DNA of 64,000 bases from contig NZ_JALLAN010000010.1 in the NCBI RefSeq assembly GCF_023062595.1, forward strand, positions 124,001 to 188,000. The letters run 5' to 3'. A model generated the notes under the pieces. That model was given only the letters and a program-made list of their open reading frames with translations, searched no databases and was not told the origin of the DNA. This document shows, piece after piece, positions 9,664 through 37,012 of the stretch; position 1 is the first letter of the stretch; every line of letters begins with the position of its first letter. This DNA is from Arthrobacter rhizosphaerae (GTDB lineage Bacteria > Actinomycetota > Actinomycetes > Actinomycetales > Micrococcaceae). The position numbers and the translations under genes are program-made.

Positions 9664-9697
9664 CTGTTTAACACCGGCTCACACCAGCTAGGCTGGG

Positions 9698-9780
9698 ATC
9701 CTGACACGGGGTGCCGCGCAAAGGGCCGGCTGAGATCCACACCCGTTGAACCTGTCCGGTTAGCACCGGCGAAGGGATGT
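9698..9780 (+). promoter_or_regulatory. TPP (thiamine pyrophosphate) riboswitch
   Basis: The conserved aptamer blocks are readable in order: ACACGGGGTGCC at 9704-9715, GGCTGAGA at 9728-9735, then ACCCGTTGAACCTG, and GGTTAGCACCGGCGAAGGGA ending at 9777. These are the hallmark P2/J3-2 and P4/P5 sequences of the THI element. It sits directly upstream of a thiD-tenA fusion, the expected target. The 3' edge of the aptamer carries the purine-rich AAGGGA, which could itself be the ribosome-binding site, so control is probably at translation initiation. Confidence 0.95.
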
Positions 9781-11348
9781 CTCCTTTGTCCTCAACGTTT
9801 TTGCCGTCACCTGCGCCTGCCGATTCCGTCAGAGCTGTTCTCCGGACCATCCCCCGAGTACTGGCGATAGCAGGCTCAGACCCGTCAGGCGGCGCCGGGA
9901 TCCAGGCAGACCTGAAGAGTATTGCGGCCAATGGTGGCTACGGAATGGCAGTTGTTACGGCACTTACGGCGCAGAACACCCAAGGCGTCCGTGCCGTCCA
10001 TGTGCCGCCCGCCTCCTTTTTAGCCGAACAGCTGGATGCCATCAGTGATGACATCGTCGTGGACGCCGTGAAAATCGGGATGCTGGGAGACGCTGACGTC
10101 ATCGGGGTGGTCAGGAGCTGGCTTACTAAAGTACGCCCCGGCGTCGTGGTCCTGGATCCTGTCATGGTGGCCACCAGCGGGGACCGGCTGCTCCAGGAAT
10201 CCGCTGAAGCAGCACTGCGTGCTCTGCTGCCCCTGGCTGATCTGCTCACGCCGAACCTCGCGGAGCTCGCCATGCTGCTGGAGGAGCCCCTGGCGAAGAA
10301 CTGGGACGCGGCGCTGGAGCAGGGCAGGCGCCTCGCAGCCGTCACGGGCGCCACAGTGTTGGTTAAGGGCGGGCATCTCGACGGCGGGGAATGCCCGGAT
10401 GCCCTCGTGAGTGCTTCGCCCGGATTCGAGGCGGAGGTGGTGGTGGTGCCGGGTGACCGTGTGCCGACGAGGAACAGCCACGGAACCGGATGTTCACTGT
10501 CGTCAGCTTTGGCGACCGCCCAGGCGCGGCTGGGAAGCTGGGAAGAGGCCCTGCGGGAGGTCAAGCCCTGGCTCCGCGGAGCCTTGGAAGAATCAGAGAT
10601 CCTCGAGGTTGGCAGGGGAGCCGGCCCTGTCCATCACTTTCACCACTTTCAGGCCAACACCGCAAGGGAGCTCGCAGGGCAGCCAGCAGGGCAGTCCGGA
10701 AAAGACTTCATGGAGGAGCTGCGCGAGAGCGCGGACCATCATTTGTCATCCATCTACCGCCTCGAGTTCATCCGTGGCCTCGTTGAAGGCTCCCTGCCCG
10801 AAGAGCAGTTTGCCTACTACCTCAGCCAGGACGCGATCTACCTGAACGGATATTCGAGGGTGCTCGCAAGGGCCTCGGCAATGGCTCCCACCGAAGAGGA
10901 ACAATTGTTCTGGGCACGGTCCGCACAGCAGTGCCTGGAAGTCGAATCCGAACTCCACCGCAGTTGGCTCAGCACACGCCCCGTCCAGTCGGGGCTGGGG
11001 CCTGTGACAAAGTCGTACGTGGACCACCTCCTTGCCAGCTCACTTGCGGGAAGCTACGGAGTGCTTGTTGCTGCTGCTTTGCCATGTTTCTGGCTTTACG
11101 CTGAAGTAGGAGCCACCCTCCACACGGAATTCCAGGCCACCGGTGCTCCGGCGGGACATGCCTACGCCGACTGGCTGCGGACGTACGCGGACGAGGAGTT
11201 TGCCGCCGCAACACGCCAGGCCATCAAGTTTACGGAGAGGGCCGCACGGGCAGGTTCCGAGGCCGAGCGCCAAGCAATGGTGGCGGCGTTCGGGCAGTCC
11301 TCCCGCTACGAGGTCGAATTCTTTGACGCGCCACGCCTGCACGCGTGA
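9777..11348 (+). CDS. thiD: Fused HMP/HMP-P kinase (ThiD) and thiaminase II (TenA)
   Basis: The N-terminal half (about residues 25-280) is ThiD, which phosphorylates hydroxymethylpyrimidine for thiamine synthesis: RVLAIAGSDPSGGAG at residues 27-41 and the anion-hole region NSHGTGCS near 240. The C-terminal half (from about residue 312) is TenA, an HMP-salvaging aminohydrolase: MEELRESADHH, YLSQDAIYL and the LPCFWLY region carrying the likely catalytic Cys. Listed from ATG 9777, but that codon touches the AAGGGA of the riboswitch; the in-frame TTG at 9786 has better ribosome-site spacing and costs only three residues. Expression should fall when TPP is abundant. Confidence 0.93.
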   Translation: MSPLSSTFLPSPAPADSVRAVLRTIPRVLAIAGSDPSGGAGIQADLKSIAANGGYGMAVVTALTAQNTQGVRAVHVPPASFLAEQLDAISDDIVVDAVKIGMLGDADVIGVVRSWLTKVRPGVVVLDPVMVATSGDRLLQESAEAALRALLPLADLLTPNLAELAMLLEEPLAKNWDAALEQGRRLAAVTGATVLVKGGHLDGGECPDALVSASPGFEAEVVVVPGDRVPTRNSHGTGCSLSSALATAQARLGSWEEALREVKPWLRGALEESEILEVGRGAGPVHHFHHFQANTARELAGQPAGQSGKDFMEELRESADHHLSSIYRLEFIRGLVEGSLPEEQFAYYLSQDAIYLNGYSRVLARASAMAPTEEEQLFWARSAQQCLEVESELHRSWLSTRPVQSGLGPVTKSYVDHLLASSLAGSYGVLVAAALPCFWLYAEVGATLHTEFQATGAPAGHAYADWLRTYADEEFAAATRQAIKFTERAARAGSEAERQAMVAAFGQSSRYEVEFFDAPRLHA

Positions 11349-19442: not shown

Positions 19443-19515
19443 GGGGCTGTGGCGCAGCTGGTAGCGCACCTGCATGGCATGCAGGGGGTCAGGGGTTCGA
19501 GTCCCCTCAGCTCCA
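19443..19515 (+). tRNA. tRNA-Ala (anticodon GGC), first copy
   Basis: 73-nt cloverleaf: acceptor GGGGCTG pairs with CAGCTCC (one G-U), anticodon stem CCTGC/GCAGG with loop ATGGCAT giving anticodon GGC, T-arm GGGGTTCGAGTCCCC, discriminator A at 19515. CCA is not encoded. Identical to the second copy 265 bases downstream. Confidence 0.97.
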
Positions 19516-19707: not shown

Positions 19708-19780
19708 GGGGCTGTGGCGCAGCTGGTAGCGCACCTGCATGGCATGCAGGGGGTCAGGGGTTCGAGTCCCCTCAGCTCCA
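19708..19780 (+). tRNA. tRNA-Ala (anticodon GGC), second copy
   Basis: Same 73 bases as the copy at 19443, including the discriminator A. Each copy has its own terminator, so each is probably transcribed separately. The shared sequence extends four bases upstream (ATTC). Confidence 0.97.
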
Positions 19781-30891: not shown

Positions 30892-31621
30892 GAATTCCAG
30901 CCCCGAAACTACCAAACGGCTGAGGCGGCGCCGCAAGCTGCTGATCTGGTCTGTGGTTCCTGTCCTCCTTGTTATTCTTACCGCGGCAAAAATATTCAGT
31001 CTCGGAATCCTGGCCGACACCGCAGCGGACGGTTTTGACCGAGGCGACTCTGCGGTTGTCTCCTCCGCTGCTTCGAGGTTGGCGTTCGCCAACATTTTCG
31101 AGCCTCATAAGGCCTTCTTTGCCGCCGGAGACGCCTTGGTGCTCGAGCAGGACTATGCAGGTGCGCGCGGGAGGTTCGAGGAAGCGCTGGCAGCAGCTCC
31201 GGCGTCGGACGATTGCAGGATCAGAGTGAACCTGGTGCTGACCATCGAGGCGCTCGGTGACTCGGCGCTGGAGTCAGGCGATAACTCGGAAGCTGCTCGC
31301 CTCTTTGCAGAAGGGCTCGCCCTGATCAAACAAGCACCACCGGAATGTTTTCCGGAGTCCCCAAGTGCGCAGGGTAGCGAAGGTGAGAAGCTCAATCGCG
31401 CCGACGCACGCCTGAAGCAGAAATCCGGGCAGAGCTCACAGCAGCAACCGGAGCAAGGTGACGACGGTGAAGGGCAGCCTGAGCCTTCCGATGAGGCCAG
31501 GCAGAGCCAGCTCCAAAAGCTCGAGCAAAGCGGTAAGGCAGCCCAGCAGGAACGCAACACAGGCCGGCAACGGGACGAATATCTCGACACCGACGGAGCC
31601 GGTACAGACCGGCCGTGGTGA
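30881..31621 (+). CDS. TPR membrane protein (BatC-like)
   Basis: 246 residues from GTG 30881, overlapping the previous gene by 11 bases. A basic N-terminus (KRLRRRRK) and a membrane helix (about 21-40) precede a short TPR-like region (ALVLEQDYAGARGRFEEAL, then GDSALESGDNSEAARLFAEG) and a Gln/Glu/Asp-rich tail (SGQSSQQQPEQGDDGEGQ). TPR followed by a charged Gln-rich tail is how BatC proteins look. It is the last gene of the operon; no BatD follows. Confidence 0.75.
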   Translation: MRDRNSSPETTKRLRRRRKLLIWSVVPVLLVILTAAKIFSLGILADTAADGFDRGDSAVVSSAASRLAFANIFEPHKAFFAAGDALVLEQDYAGARGRFEEALAAAPASDDCRIRVNLVLTIEALGDSALESGDNSEAARLFAEGLALIKQAPPECFPESPSAQGSEGEKLNRADARLKQKSGQSSQQQPEQGDDGEGQPEPSDEARQSQLQKLEQSGKAAQQERNTGRQRDEYLDTDGAGTDRPW

Positions 31622-31781
31622 GATATGGTTTGCAGCCGCCAGCGGAAGAAGTCCGACATGACCCCTGAGGCTGCTCCGGTCGAAGATTCTTCTGCTTCCC
31701 ACGTCAACTGACCGTAAAACTGCGTCTTAATTCGGAGGCTAACTTGAAGCCATCCGGTATGGCCCATAGAGTTCTATACAA

Positions 31782-31873
31782 GTTACCGAGGTAACGTGTC
31801 AGCGATCCTCCGCAGTGCCCGTCGCAAATGCGGCGTGTGAGGAGGGTGTGGGTGCCCCCATGTGGGCCTGACA
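31782..31873 (+). ncRNA. Predicted structured leader upstream of metF-metE
   Basis: A 14-bp palindrome GTTACCGAGGTAAC (31782-31795) is followed by a nested set of pairings: outer stem TGTCAG 31797-31802 with CTGACA 31868-31873, inner stem CCTCC 31807-31811 with GGAGG 31841-31845, and inside it CGTCGC 31820-31825 with GCGGCG 31830-31835 closing an AAAT loop. The result is a multi-branched element. It does not match the SAM-I, SAM-IV, SAH or cobalamin riboswitch consensus I know. The whole gap 31622-32041 has no convincing gene. Drawn by eye. Confidence 0.4.
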
Positions 31874-32041
31874 TTTGCTCACGGAGAACTTCCTTCCAGG
31901 CGTAACAGTCGCGGCTGCGTCCTGCGGGAGTTCCTTCGTGTTCCCCAAACTCCATTCATTGACGGCACTGCCGTACTGGTATCGGGCTTTCCAGCCACAG
32001 GACCGGACGACGTATCACCAATGTCAAAGCCAAGGACGCAA

Positions 32042-33010
32042 ATGTCACCACCAAGCCTTATTGAGGCACATTCAAATCTTTCGGAAACCGCGCCGGTGGC
32101 GCTCTCCTATGAGCTCTTCCCGCCCCGGTCGCCCGCTGCCGCCGAGTCGCTGTGGACCACCATCGGAGAGCTGGAGTCCACGGACCCCGACTACGTCTCC
32201 GTGACCTACGGGGCCAGCGGCTCCAACCGGGACACCGCCGTCGAACTGATCAACCGGCTCATCCTCGAAACCACGCTCCGCCCGTTGGCGCACCTGACCT
32301 GCGTGGGCAACACGCCCGAGGAGCTTGCCGGGATCATCGGTGAACTGCTCGACGTCGGCGTCCGCGGCATCCTGGCCCTCCGGGGAGACGAGCCCAAGGA
32401 CGGCGCTGCACCGGCAAGCGGTTCCCTTCGGTATGCCCAGGACCTCATCGAACTGATCCGCCGGGTGGAGCAGCGGCGTTCTGCCCTGCTCTGTGCAGGC
32501 AAGGTGGCTGTTGGCGTCGCTGCCTACCCCACACGGCATCCGGAATCACCGAACGAGGCCCACGACGTCGAGGTGCTGCTGGCCAAGCAGCGATCAGGGG
32601 CCGATTTCGCTATTACCCAGGTGTTCTTCCACTCTGAGCAGTACGCGGACCTGATGACAAGGGCACGGCGCGCCGGTGTAACCATCCCCATCATCCCCGG
32701 CGTTATGCCGCTGACGAGCCTCCGCCGTGTCACGCGGCTCGGCGAGCTTGCGGGTGTCGCACCGGATCCACGGCTGATGGAACGCCTTGCGGCCGCGGAC
32801 AACGACATCGAGCGCCGACGGATTGGTGTGGCTGCCACAGTAGACCTCGCCAATGCTGCCCTGGACGCCGGTGCTCCTGGCATCCACCTCTACACCTTCA
32901 ACGAGCATGCGTGCGCTCTCGACGTTCTCGACAAGCTGGCCTTGCCGCGCCCGGCACGTCCGGCCAGCAGGCTAAGTGCCATCGCCCGCCGGCAGGTTCT
33001 TGCCAGCTGA
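32042..33010 (+). CDS. metF: Methylenetetrahydrofolate reductase
   Basis: Reduces 5,10-methylene-THF to 5-methyl-THF, the methyl donor for methionine. A TIM-barrel flavoprotein of 322 residues: the catalytic Glu lies in SYELFPPRS near the N-terminus, and FAD-binding blocks include THLTCVG-like AHLTCVGNT and LALRGDEPK. ATG 32042 is chosen because AAGGA lies at 32032-32036; an in-frame ATG at 32021 lacks a good site, and the frame is open back to 31862. It feeds the metE enzyme encoded 107 bases downstream. Confidence 0.95.
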   Translation: MSPPSLIEAHSNLSETAPVALSYELFPPRSPAAAESLWTTIGELESTDPDYVSVTYGASGSNRDTAVELINRLILETTLRPLAHLTCVGNTPEELAGIIGELLDVGVRGILALRGDEPKDGAAPASGSLRYAQDLIELIRRVEQRRSALLCAGKVAVGVAAYPTRHPESPNEAHDVEVLLAKQRSGADFAITQVFFHSEQYADLMTRARRAGVTIPIIPGVMPLTSLRRVTRLGELAGVAPDPRLMERLAAADNDIERRRIGVAATVDLANAALDAGAPGIHLYTFNEHACALDVLDKLALPRPARPASRLSAIARRQVLAS

Positions 33011-33117
33011 ATACCCGCTGGCACCTGACGGATCAACACGTCGGCTGACGGGTGAACACCCGTCTGCGTTTGAATACCATCCAAGAATTTGACCAACACA
33101 TTTCAAGGAATCCTCAC

Positions 33118-35460
33118 ATGACTGAACAGACTGCCACCGCAGCCACAGCTTTCCCGTCCGCCTCCATCCTCGGCTACCCGCGCATCGGCCGCCGCCGCGA
33201 ACTGAAGAAGGCCATTGAGGCCTATTGGGCCGGCAAAATTGATGCCTCTGCCCTCGACACCGCAGCCAAGGAGATCCAGCTGGGTACGGCCAAGCGCCTT
33301 CAGGGCCTGGGCCTGACCGAGGCCGCCGCCATTCCGGGCACGTTCTCGTACTACGACCAGGTGCTCGACGCCGCTGCCCACCTCGGCGCCGTACCGGCAC
33401 GTTTCGGTCAGCTCCTCAACGCCGACGGCCAGCTGGACATCGACGGCTACTTCACTCTTGCCCGCGGGAACAAGGAACAGCAGCCGCTGGAAATGACCAA
33501 GTGGTTCGACACCAACTACCACTACCTCGTGCCTGAAATCGGCCCGGAGACCAACTTCGCCCTGACCTCCAACCGCATCGTTGAAGAGTTCGAGTACGCC
33601 CTGGCCAACGGCGTCGAAACCCGCCCGTACATTGTGGGCCCGGTCACCTTCCTGCTGCTCAGCAAGGCTTCCGACGACGCCCCTGCCGGCTTCAGCCCGC
33701 TGTCGCGTCTAGAGGACGTCCTGCCGGTTTACACTGCCCTGCTGGAGAAGCTGGCTGCTGCCGGTGCCAGCTGGGTCCAGCTTGACGAACCCTCCCTGGT
33801 GGTTGACCAGGACACCTCCGCCGAGGAGATCCAGGCCGCCGTCGCCCGCTCCTACGAGGTCCTTTCCGCGGCCGCCAACCGCCCGCAGCTGTTCGTCTCC
33901 ACCCCCTACGGTGCCCTCAGCGGCCAGTTCGCAACGCTTGCCGCCACCGAAATCGATGCCCTGCACATTGACGCCTTCAAGGGTGCGGTTCCGTCCGCCG
34001 AAGAGCTCGCCGCCCTGGGCAGCAAGACCCTCGTTGCCGGCGTCGTGGACGGCCACAACATCTGGCGCAACGACCTCCAAGCCTCGGCAGACAAGATCGC
34101 CGAGCTGAAGAAGTCGGTAGCCAAGCTCGCCATCAGCACCTCCACTTCCACCCAGCACGTCCCGCACGACGTCGAGGAAGAGGCCCAGCTGTCCGAACAG
34201 CTCCGCAGCTGGCTGGCGTTCGCGGACCAGAAGGCAGTCGAGGTTGTTACGCTTGCCGGCCTGCTGACCGATGCCGCTGCTGTTCAGCCCGCCATCGACG
34301 AAGCCACCCGCGTCATTGCTTCCCGCGCCGAAGCCGAAGGCGTCCGCCGCGCAGACGTCCGTGCCCGCACCGCAGCCCTGACTCCGGCTGACTTCAACCG
34401 CTCCGAGTACTCGGTCCGCGAAGCAGCCCAGGAAGAGGCCCTGCACCTGCCGCCGCTGCCCACCACCACCATCGGCTCGTTCCCGCAAACGTCCGAAATC
34501 CGGTCGGCCCGCGCCCGCAACAACAAGGGCGACCTCACCAACGAGCAGTACGAGCAGCTCATGAAGGACGAGATCAAGCGCGTTGTGGAGCTCCAGGAAG
34601 AGCTCGGCTACGACGTCCTGGTGCACGGTGAGCCCGAGCGCAACGACATGGTCCAGTACTTCGCCGAGAACCTCGAAGGCTTCGACGTCACGGTCCACGG
34701 CTGGGTCCAGTCCTACGGCTCACGCTGCACCCGTCCGTCCATCCTGTGGGGCGATGTCACCCGCAGCGCCCCCATCACGGTGGAATGGGCCAAGTACGCG
34801 CAGTCCCTGACCAGCAAGCCCATGAAGGGCATGCTCACCGGTCCGGTCACCATCCTGGCCTGGTCCTTCGTTCGCGATGACCAGCCGCTGGGCGAGACCG
34901 CCAACCAGGTTGGCCTGGCACTCCGCGACGAGATCGCCGACCTCGAAGCTGCAGGCATCAAGGTCATCCAGGTGGACGAGCCCGCACTGCGTGAGCTCCT
35001 GCCGCTGCGCAAGGCAGACCAGGCCGCTTACCTTGACTGGTCCGTGAACTCGTTCCGCCTCTCCACTGCCGGTGCAGCGGATGCAACGCAGATCCACACC
35101 CACCTGTGCTACTCGGAGTTCGGCGCCATCATCGATGCCATCGATGGCCTGGACGCGGACGTCACCTCCATCGAGGCTGCCCGCTCACGTATGGAGGTCG
35201 TCCATGACCTCGAGTCCCACGGTTTCGGCCGCGGCGTTGGCCCGGGCGTCTACGACATCCACTCGCCCCGCGTTCCGGGCAAGCAGGAAGTCACCGAACT
35301 GCTCAGCACCGCTGTCAAGCATGTCCCGTCACGCCAGCTCTGGGTCAACCCGGACTGTGGCCTGAAGACCCGCGGTTACGCCGAGACTGAAGAGTCCCTG
35401 CGCAACCTGGTTGAGGCCACCAAGACGGTTCGCGCCGAACTGCTGGAAACCGCCAAGTAG
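33118..35460 (+). CDS. metE: Cobalamin-independent methionine synthase
   Basis: Transfers the methyl group of 5-methyl-THF-polyglutamate to homocysteine without B12. 780 residues, normal length, from ATG 33118 with AAGGAA upstream. Two TIM barrels: an N-terminal evolved barrel (GYPRIGRRRELKKA) and a C-terminal catalytic barrel with zinc ligands in HTHLCYSEF (His and Cys), IEAARS (Glu) and NPDCGLKTR (Cys). With metF it forms the methyl-transfer module; the C-terminal stop is followed by a long hairpin. Confidence 0.97.
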   Translation: MTEQTATAATAFPSASILGYPRIGRRRELKKAIEAYWAGKIDASALDTAAKEIQLGTAKRLQGLGLTEAAAIPGTFSYYDQVLDAAAHLGAVPARFGQLLNADGQLDIDGYFTLARGNKEQQPLEMTKWFDTNYHYLVPEIGPETNFALTSNRIVEEFEYALANGVETRPYIVGPVTFLLLSKASDDAPAGFSPLSRLEDVLPVYTALLEKLAAAGASWVQLDEPSLVVDQDTSAEEIQAAVARSYEVLSAAANRPQLFVSTPYGALSGQFATLAATEIDALHIDAFKGAVPSAEELAALGSKTLVAGVVDGHNIWRNDLQASADKIAELKKSVAKLAISTSTSTQHVPHDVEEEAQLSEQLRSWLAFADQKAVEVVTLAGLLTDAAAVQPAIDEATRVIASRAEAEGVRRADVRARTAALTPADFNRSEYSVREAAQEEALHLPPLPTTTIGSFPQTSEIRSARARNNKGDLTNEQYEQLMKDEIKRVVELQEELGYDVLVHGEPERNDMVQYFAENLEGFDVTVHGWVQSYGSRCTRPSILWGDVTRSAPITVEWAKYAQSLTSKPMKGMLTGPVTILAWSFVRDDQPLGETANQVGLALRDEIADLEAAGIKVIQVDEPALRELLPLRKADQAAYLDWSVNSFRLSTAGAADATQIHTHLCYSEFGAIIDAIDGLDADVTSIEAARSRMEVVHDLESHGFGRGVGPGVYDIHSPRVPGKQEVTELLSTAVKHVPSRQLWVNPDCGLKTRGYAETEESLRNLVEATKTVRAELLETAK

Positions 35461-36094: not shown

Positions 36095-37012
36095 TTATTT
36101 CCCCTTCGAGCCCAGGTTGGTGAGTGTTTCAGCCAGAAGATCCACGAACAGCTGGACGCGGGCGGTCTTCTTTTCGTTGAACAACAGGGCAAAGACGTTA
36201 CGGGCCAGCCGAATTTCAGGGACGTCCAGTACGACGACGCCGGGTGGCTGGCGCAGGAGGGCGAGCTCGGGTACAAGTGCCGCGCCGAGTCCTGCAGCTG
36301 CCATCTCCAGGCTTGCGTGGAAGTCGTCGCTGTAGGCCACCACCCTGGGATGCAGGTTGCAGCTGGCGAACAGCCGCTCAATCACTGTGGCGTCGCTGGT
36401 TCCCGGGTGGTGTACGATCCAAGGCATTTCGGACAGGTGATCGGCGGCCATTTTCGCGTCAGTGCGGATTCCCCAGGCAGCAGGGAGCACAACCCTGAAG
36501 TTGTCGTCACCGATCCATTGGCGGTTCAAGGTGTGAGGCCAGGCCAGCCCGGACTGACCCACCTGATAGACAAGAGCAAGGTCCAGCTCGCCGCCAGTCC
36601 GCAGGCCCTGAATGGTCTGGGACGGTTCTGCCACCGAGACGCGCAGATCGATGCCGAGGTCTTTCCAGGCCGGCTTCTGCAGGATCTTGGGGAGAACGTA
36701 CGTGGCCAGGCTGGGGAAGATGCCCAGCCTCAGCTCCTGGCTCGTGACATCGTGCGTTCGGGTGGCTGCCGCCATGAGAGCTTCAATGTCGGTCAGCACT
36801 TTGGAAGCATGCCGGGTCATCACCACAGCAGCCTCCGTGGGCAGGATGCTCTTCGCTGAACGATGGAACAGATCCACCCCCGTGTCACGCTCCAGGGCGG
36901 ACATTTGTTGTGAGACAGCGGACGCTGTATAGCCCAGGCGGGTGGCGGCCGCTGCAAAGGATCCCAGCCGAACCACTTCGACCAGGGTTCGGAGGTGAAC
37001 GGGGTTGACCAT
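36095..37012 (-). CDS. LysR-family transcriptional regulator
   Basis: 305 residues. N-terminal winged helix (HLRTLVEVVRLGSFAAAATR and GYTASAVSQQMSALE) and a C-terminal LysR substrate domain (about 90-295). The effector and target are unknown; the gene is not divergent from an obvious target, and the DUF2004 gene follows it. Ribokinase lies upstream, 87 bases away in the same direction. Confidence 0.9.
   Translation of the reverse strand: MVNPVHLRTLVEVVRLGSFAAAATRLGYTASAVSQQMSALERDTGVDLFHRSAKSILPTEAAVVMTRHASKVLTDIEALMAAATRTHDVTSQELRLGIFPSLATYVLPKILQKPAWKDLGIDLRVSVAEPSQTIQGLRTGGELDLALVYQVGQSGLAWPHTLNRQWIGDDNFRVVLPAAWGIRTDAKMAADHLSEMPWIVHHPGTSDATVIERLFASCNLHPRVVAYSDDFHASLEMAAAGLGAALVPELALLRQPPGVVVLDVPEIRLARNVFALLFNEKKTARVQLFVDLLAETLTNLGSKGK

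Follow-up and report, generated by a model that had tools for sequence, protein, structure and literature searches.

The DNA ahead of metF and metE encodes a conserved RNA leader element, spanning ~31779-31878 of the window (the whole stretch of DNA analysed, 64,000 nucleotides of a 5.0 Mb genome), which we regard as a real, family-restricted cis-regulatory RNA that is undescribed as far as searched. At a probability of roughly 0.6, we read it as the leader with which the metF-metE mRNA begins and as an RNA switch, of a class so far undescribed, that acts on translation. Conserved, structured and covarying, and placed in a 5' leader by a conserved promoter, it resembles a riboswitch in these respects. 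A cis-regulatory RNA before metF-metE had been the core of the original prediction; the multi-helix leader and the lack of an Rfam match uphold that part, and its suggestion that a palindrome in the leader is a repressor operator has been weakened. Should the RNA respond to a ligand, the RNA switches of the methionine cycle would gain a class not yet described.

Architecture and covariation of the metF leader

The promoter, the RNA helices and both genes lie in the following order.

31744-31772, + strand: promoter predicted from conservation, with -35 TTGAAG (31744-31749), a 17-nt spacer and -10 TAGAGT (31767-31772)
31782-31795, + strand: P0, a 5' hairpin GUUAC-CGAG-GUAAC (the GTTACCGAGGTAAC palindrome), from covariation
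31796-31802, + strand: P1 5' strand GUGUCAG, inner five pairs near-invariant
31805-31847, + strand: P2, AUCCUCC (31805-31811) with GGAGGGU (31841-31847), from covariation
31848-31853, + strand: J2/3, GUGGGU, invariant in 96 distinct sequences
31854-31867, + strand: P3, GCCC (31854-31857) with GGGC (31864-31867) around the loop CCAUGU, 99.7% of cells paired
31868-31874, + strand: P1 3' strand CUGACAU, the proposed switching strand, from the alignment of loci
31880-31940, + strand: P4, a hairpin of CACGGAGAACUUCC (31880-31893) with GGGAGUUCCUUCGUG (31926-31940), from folding prediction
32032-32036, + strand: Shine-Dalgarno AAGGA of metF, from the sequence, with similar AGG/AGGA in homologs by eye
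32042-33010, + strand: metF, methylenetetrahydrofolate reductase, 322 aa (TIGR00676, E 5.8e-77, 258.7 bits, under the curated cut-off of 293.7)
33052-35460, + strand: metE, B12-independent methionine synthase (TIGR01371, 1001.6 bits, above cut-off)

The 14-bp palindrome and the outer stem of the original prediction are both present, and two helices, P2 and P3, lie within the latter (TGTCAG, 31797-31802, with CTGACA, 31868-31873). Downstream of metE, a LysR-type regulator (by eye) occupies 36095-37012 on the minus strand.

Comparative sequence analysis shows that helices P0 and P2 are real. We aligned 100 of 143 loci, or 96 distinct sequences, by fitting them to a covariance model, which biases the alignment toward the structure; across the distinct sequences, 94.8% of pair cells hold standard pairs, compared with 24-55% when the partners are slid by 1-3 columns. 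Changes on both sides of a pair occur at six of seven P2 pairs and at all five P0 pairs in the 96 distinct sequences of this model-fitted alignment, and at 6/7 and 3/5, respectively, in an unfitted alignment of 13 sequences. We then placed the changes on a tree of MetF proteins from 98 loci, having set aside two of the 100 aligned because their MetF reading was short. Pairing survived 30 double changes in P2 and 13 in P0; the slid controls gave 3 apiece for P2 and 0 for P0. Pair-breaking single changes in this alignment number 26 in P0 and 15 in P2; P0 is paired in 88.1% of cells, and certain loci (for example, L011, L013 and L147) do not form it in the drawn shape. The compensatory stem changes sought in homologs were therefore found for P0 and P2 and not for P1 and P3, which barely vary and show no covariation in the 96 distinct sequences. 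The inner five pairs of P1 are invariant save one G-U, and its outer U-A pair is unformed in 22/96; in P3, standard-pair changes are to G-U only and one cell is unpaired.

The core downstream of P0 is far more conserved than P0 itself, and J2/3 and the P3 loop are near-invariant. These two segments could form a pseudoknot (GUGG/CCAU): the sequences are 99.2% compatible with it, near-invariance leaves no double change, and three sequences break one pair. The P2 loop is variable and holds an extra hairpin in the window's genome. A 5'-closing hairpin corresponding to P4 is predicted in 140/142 loci, a count made without a positional control; its energy is not exceptional (median z -0.97) and its covariation is weak. 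Folded as a single sequence, the window's own element is unremarkable (z -0.85, with 38 of 200 shuffles equally or more stable). Alone among the 96, element L148 (1301-1391, minus strand) has AUC where the others have (A/G)UG in the loop of P3, and its P3 closing position is A, not G.

Given the conserved position of the promoter, we expect transcription to start near 31779, at the base of the P0 hairpin. The pattern TTGnnn-17/18-TAnnnT precedes the element in 136/142 loci, whereas shuffling the bases of these stretches produced it in 54 of 2840 cases, and where it is conserved its -10 box lies a median of 31 nt 5' of GTCAGCGA. A strict sigma-70 scan gave no match in the window. The 420-nt metF leader originally proposed shrinks on this basis to a predicted transcript leader of ~263 nt, 31622-31778 being intergenic DNA and promoter. 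A start downstream of 31873, which would have told against the leader reading, is unlikely with a promoter so widely conserved. No intrinsic terminator was found for the leader. Ahead of the -35 box, at 31723-31735, is a CGTCTTAATTCGG-like motif, and relatives have a similar motif upstream of the element: CGTCnnAwTY occurs there in 76/142 loci, a median of 75 nt 5' of GTCAGCGA, and in 68 of these 76 it stands 10-11 nt ahead of the -35 box. Motifs of this type are perhaps an activator site or an UP element.

Distribution of the element across the family

Searching with 31770-31885 by blastn gave matches in 17/61 family genomes and 10/32 genera. A first covariance model, built from 13 of those 17 genomes, matched 143/395 family genomes in 11/32 genera, with one match per genome; in the window's genus, 64/77 genomes carry the element. 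Eleven of 297 genomes matched in an order-wide sample, ten within the family and one judged false. With a second covariance model, 9/394 genomes of a class sample matched at E <=0.01; four belong to the family, and the five from outside it are weak (23-27 bits). A phylum sample gave 3/198, two in the window's genus and the third one of those five weak matches. The element is thus confined to this family as far as sampled, the wide searches having used strict filters that drop weak matches. Candidates outside the family were inspected and rejected. The 31-bit match L062 (genome G467) lies on the minus strand, where its neighbours resemble uppS and phoH (by eye) and no gene is placed for it to control. 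L335-L339 (23-27 bits), in whose 3 kb neither metF nor metE occurs, were judged false; three of them, L337-L339, read by eye like a single coding sequence.

Gene context is uniform. We found metF next downstream of the element in 142/142 loci read (the 143 matches minus G339, which sits near a contig end). Named relatives contribute at least 115 stretches with the core pattern, overlapping with the 142 loci and including, among the matches listed, Arthrobacter, Pseudarthrobacter (which belongs to Micrococcaceae), Sinomonas, Paenarthrobacter, Specibacter, Acaricomes, Haematomicrobium and others. Among these listed matches, metF is downstream in 110/115 named loci, the other five having fewer than 260 bases left, and metE directly follows metF on its 3' side in 73/77 named loci with enough room. 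One carrier, L224, comes from a record named Sporosarcina beigongshangi, a name that looks wrong.

Complementarity between the tail and the metF start

The element ends in a tail complementary to the start of metF, a feature that the original prediction had not seen. Its two strands are as follows.

31870-31878, + strand: anti-start strand GACAUUUGC (P1 3' strand plus UUUGC), complementary to the metF start and overlapping the P1 3' strand
32038-32046, + strand: metF start region GCAAAUGUC, complementary to 31870-31878

Across the 142 loci, metF starts 61-199 nt after CTGAC (the starts of L097, L147 and L148 were placed by hand from the sequence), and tail and start form a helix of at least nine contiguous pairs in 133/142 when G-U is allowed and in 117/142 when it is not. 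Helices of this length arose in 252/7100 shuffled start regions and 14/2807 linker segments. The 9-mers GACAUUUGC and GCAAAUGUC each occur once in the 64-kb window. In three loci (L123, L135 and L138) the helix is lengthened to 11 pairs, and starts reading GCAGAUGUC or GCAAGUGUC stay paired to the tail by wobble. Among the seven clear metF genes that lack the element, none has GCAAAUGUC at its start (by eye, with the start of L284 uncertain).

Variation in this helix is limited. Its last pair is C-G in 119 loci and U-A in 11 loci of one genus, which keep the rest of the helix, some via G-U. Tree reconstruction yielded no clean double change from C-G to U-A, and five single changes and one double change leave the pair unpaired. 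The tail pairs poorly with the metF start in L010, L014 and L091. Six loci of one genus (L017, L122, L124, L142, L154 and L158) have a changed tail, UUCGUACG, that pairs over 7-8 pairs with a complement, CGUACGAA, just upstream of the Shine-Dalgarno; this alternative pairing need not exclude P1. In most loci the P1 3' strand and the anti-start strand overlap, and P1 itself is without covariation. The counts across loci show that the start-codon complementarity is real, with few independent co-changes.

This geometry suggests a switch. In the free RNA, the tail GACAUUUGC would pair with GCAAAUGUC and hide the AUG, giving an OFF state. A ligand-stabilised junction would instead hold the tail strand in P1 and expose the metF start, giving an ON state in which metF, and metE behind it, would be translated. 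Whole-leader folding, a calculation that leaves out ligand, tertiary contacts and co-transcriptional order, assigned anti-start pairing a probability above 0.5 in 129/142 leaders (0.61 for the window's own) and P1 a probability above 0.5 in 3; forming P1 carried a median energy penalty of 7.8 kcal/mol in 135 leaders, and in the other 7 P1 was the more stable state. Because folding favours the anti-start pairing, the free RNA is predicted to be OFF and a stabiliser of the junction to turn it ON, and it is from this model that we infer ON switching.

Candidate signals and rival explanations

We compared 31600-32100 with 4227 Rfam 15 covariance models, T-box and THF included, at E up to 10 and obtained no family match; the only two Rfam matches at this threshold were on the other strand, at ~15 bits with E 1.8 and 2, and are attributed to chance. 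Ten homolog loci searched at gathering scores gave no match to SAM-I, SAM-IV or SAH models, and cobalamin RF00174 was absent both from the leader, whether scored at gathering or with E as high as 10, and from the window's own genome. This search bears out the earlier statement that the leader matches no SAM or B12 riboswitch.

Relatives lacking the element offer a guide to the signal. A metF search of 36 chosen from the 252 element-free family genomes found seven clear metF genes. Six of them, spread over six other genera, carry a SAM riboswitch in the leader: four SAM-I and one SAM-IV over the gathering score and one SAM-I just under it. In the locus L281, SAM-I stands before metF at 1277-1390 with 42.4 bits against a gathering score of 44.4. 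The seventh gene (G057) lies close behind another gene with no leader (by eye), and other members of its genus carry the element. In the window's genus itself, MetF went unmatched in 12 of the 13 element-free genomes, and the remaining one had remote matches only. SAM-I (RF00162) and SAM-IV (RF00634) therefore occupy the metF leader in those six genera, whereas the element matches neither model. If the element is ligand-responsive, their presence at the same gene in other genera of the family would amount to a natural experiment in regulatory RNA replacement.

Each of the 61 family genomes tested has SAM-IV, whether or not it bears the element, and 48/61 have SAM-I. The window's own genome has no SAM-I match and three SAM-IV riboswitches, none at the metF element. 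One precedes metX, another a rhodanese-like gene (by eye) followed by metZ, O-succinylhomoserine sulfhydrylase, and the third a class V aminotransferase-like gene (by eye). With homocysteine synthesis under SAM-IV and homocysteine use under the element, homocysteine or S-adenosylhomocysteine (SAH) would fit as activator, and this division of genes hints that one of them is the ligand. The most plausible ligand would be a signal calling for homocysteine remethylation. We raise, tentatively, the possibility of a new Micrococcaceae riboswitch that senses homocysteine, or forms a second SAH class, and would free the start codon to activate metF-metE translation. If ligand-responsive, the element is a strong candidate for actinobacterial RNA sensing of homocysteine or SAH.

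SAM repression is the usual logic for methionine genes of the metF kind, and the element stands where related genera have SAM riboswitches, six of the seven element-free metF genes carrying SAM-I or SAM-IV there. Both points would suit an OFF switch sensing SAM or methionine, that is, a new SAM aptamer class whose bound form frees the tail to hide the start codon. However, since stem P1 closes the junction and has the tail as its 3' strand, stabilising the junction should free the start codon rather than hide it, and every family genome tested already has SAM-IV; we consider such an OFF switch unlikely. Leader control that involves no small molecule, with translation of a mini frame, a protein or a small RNA opening the anti-start helix, strikes us as rather improbable. 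Its main attraction is a short frame:

31860-31871, + strand: mini open frame AUG-UGG-GCC-UGA within P3/P1, conserved as (A/G)UG-NGG-GYC-UGA in 141/142 loci

The frame keeps an AUG or GUG start in those 141 loci, and a ribosome on it would cover the tail. However, codon 2 alternates between Trp and Arg, L148 lacks the start codon, no clear Shine-Dalgarno precedes the frame and most of its letters are shared with P1, P3 and the anti-start strand, so that its conservation may reflect RNA conservation only. As a sensing leader peptide we rejected it, codon 2 not being conserved.

The remaining proposal, in which the palindrome serves a repressor as its DNA operator while the remainder of the leader is unconstrained, draws on the palindrome's location at ~+3 to +16, a usual position for a repressor. 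The same location puts it at the predicted mRNA 5' end, where its stem covaries as P0. Loop length and stem letters differ between genera, with compensation, in place of the conserved half-sites and fixed spacing of a DNA operator, and conservation is far higher in the core downstream. Together these points weaken the operator claim of the original prediction, and we hold it to be very improbable.

The preferred reading, a translational switch in the metF-metE leader, has counterparts in known systems. SAH riboswitches use ON logic, as proposed for the element, but the SAH model (which we take to be Rfam RF01057) has no match in the leader. In proteobacteria, metF is a core member of the SAH riboswitch regulon, and homocysteine-sensing MetR acts on metE and metF (PMC4239095, in part). 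MetR shares the target genes and the proposed signal with the element; it is a protein activator acting at DNA, whereas the element is a leader RNA. If the homocysteine or second SAH class reading is true, the element would be an RNA counterpart of MetR.

Motifs from surveys of GC-rich intergenic regions (GC-IGR; PMC11109978, PMC8632094 and PMC6429828) are likewise, in the main texts, covarying leader RNAs with ligand unassigned. In the parts covered of the main texts of Narunsky 2024 (PMC11109978), Brewer 2021 (PMC8632094), Stav 2019 (PMC6429828) and Weinberg 2010 (PMC2864571), no such motif appears, and those of the first three have no mention of metF, metE, Arthrobacter or Micrococc-. In the parts covered of a review of riboswitch ligands (PMC9971707), homocysteine has no free-standing mention. 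We found no published description of the element in a search that left aside supplements and most subscription journals, and within that scope, with no Rfam 15 match, the earlier suggestion of an undescribed class stands.

Elsewhere in the window, a TPP riboswitch at 9697-9794 on the + strand scores over its gathering threshold, and two tRNA genes with equal scores lie at 19443-19515 and 19708-19780 on the + strand, 265 bases apart.
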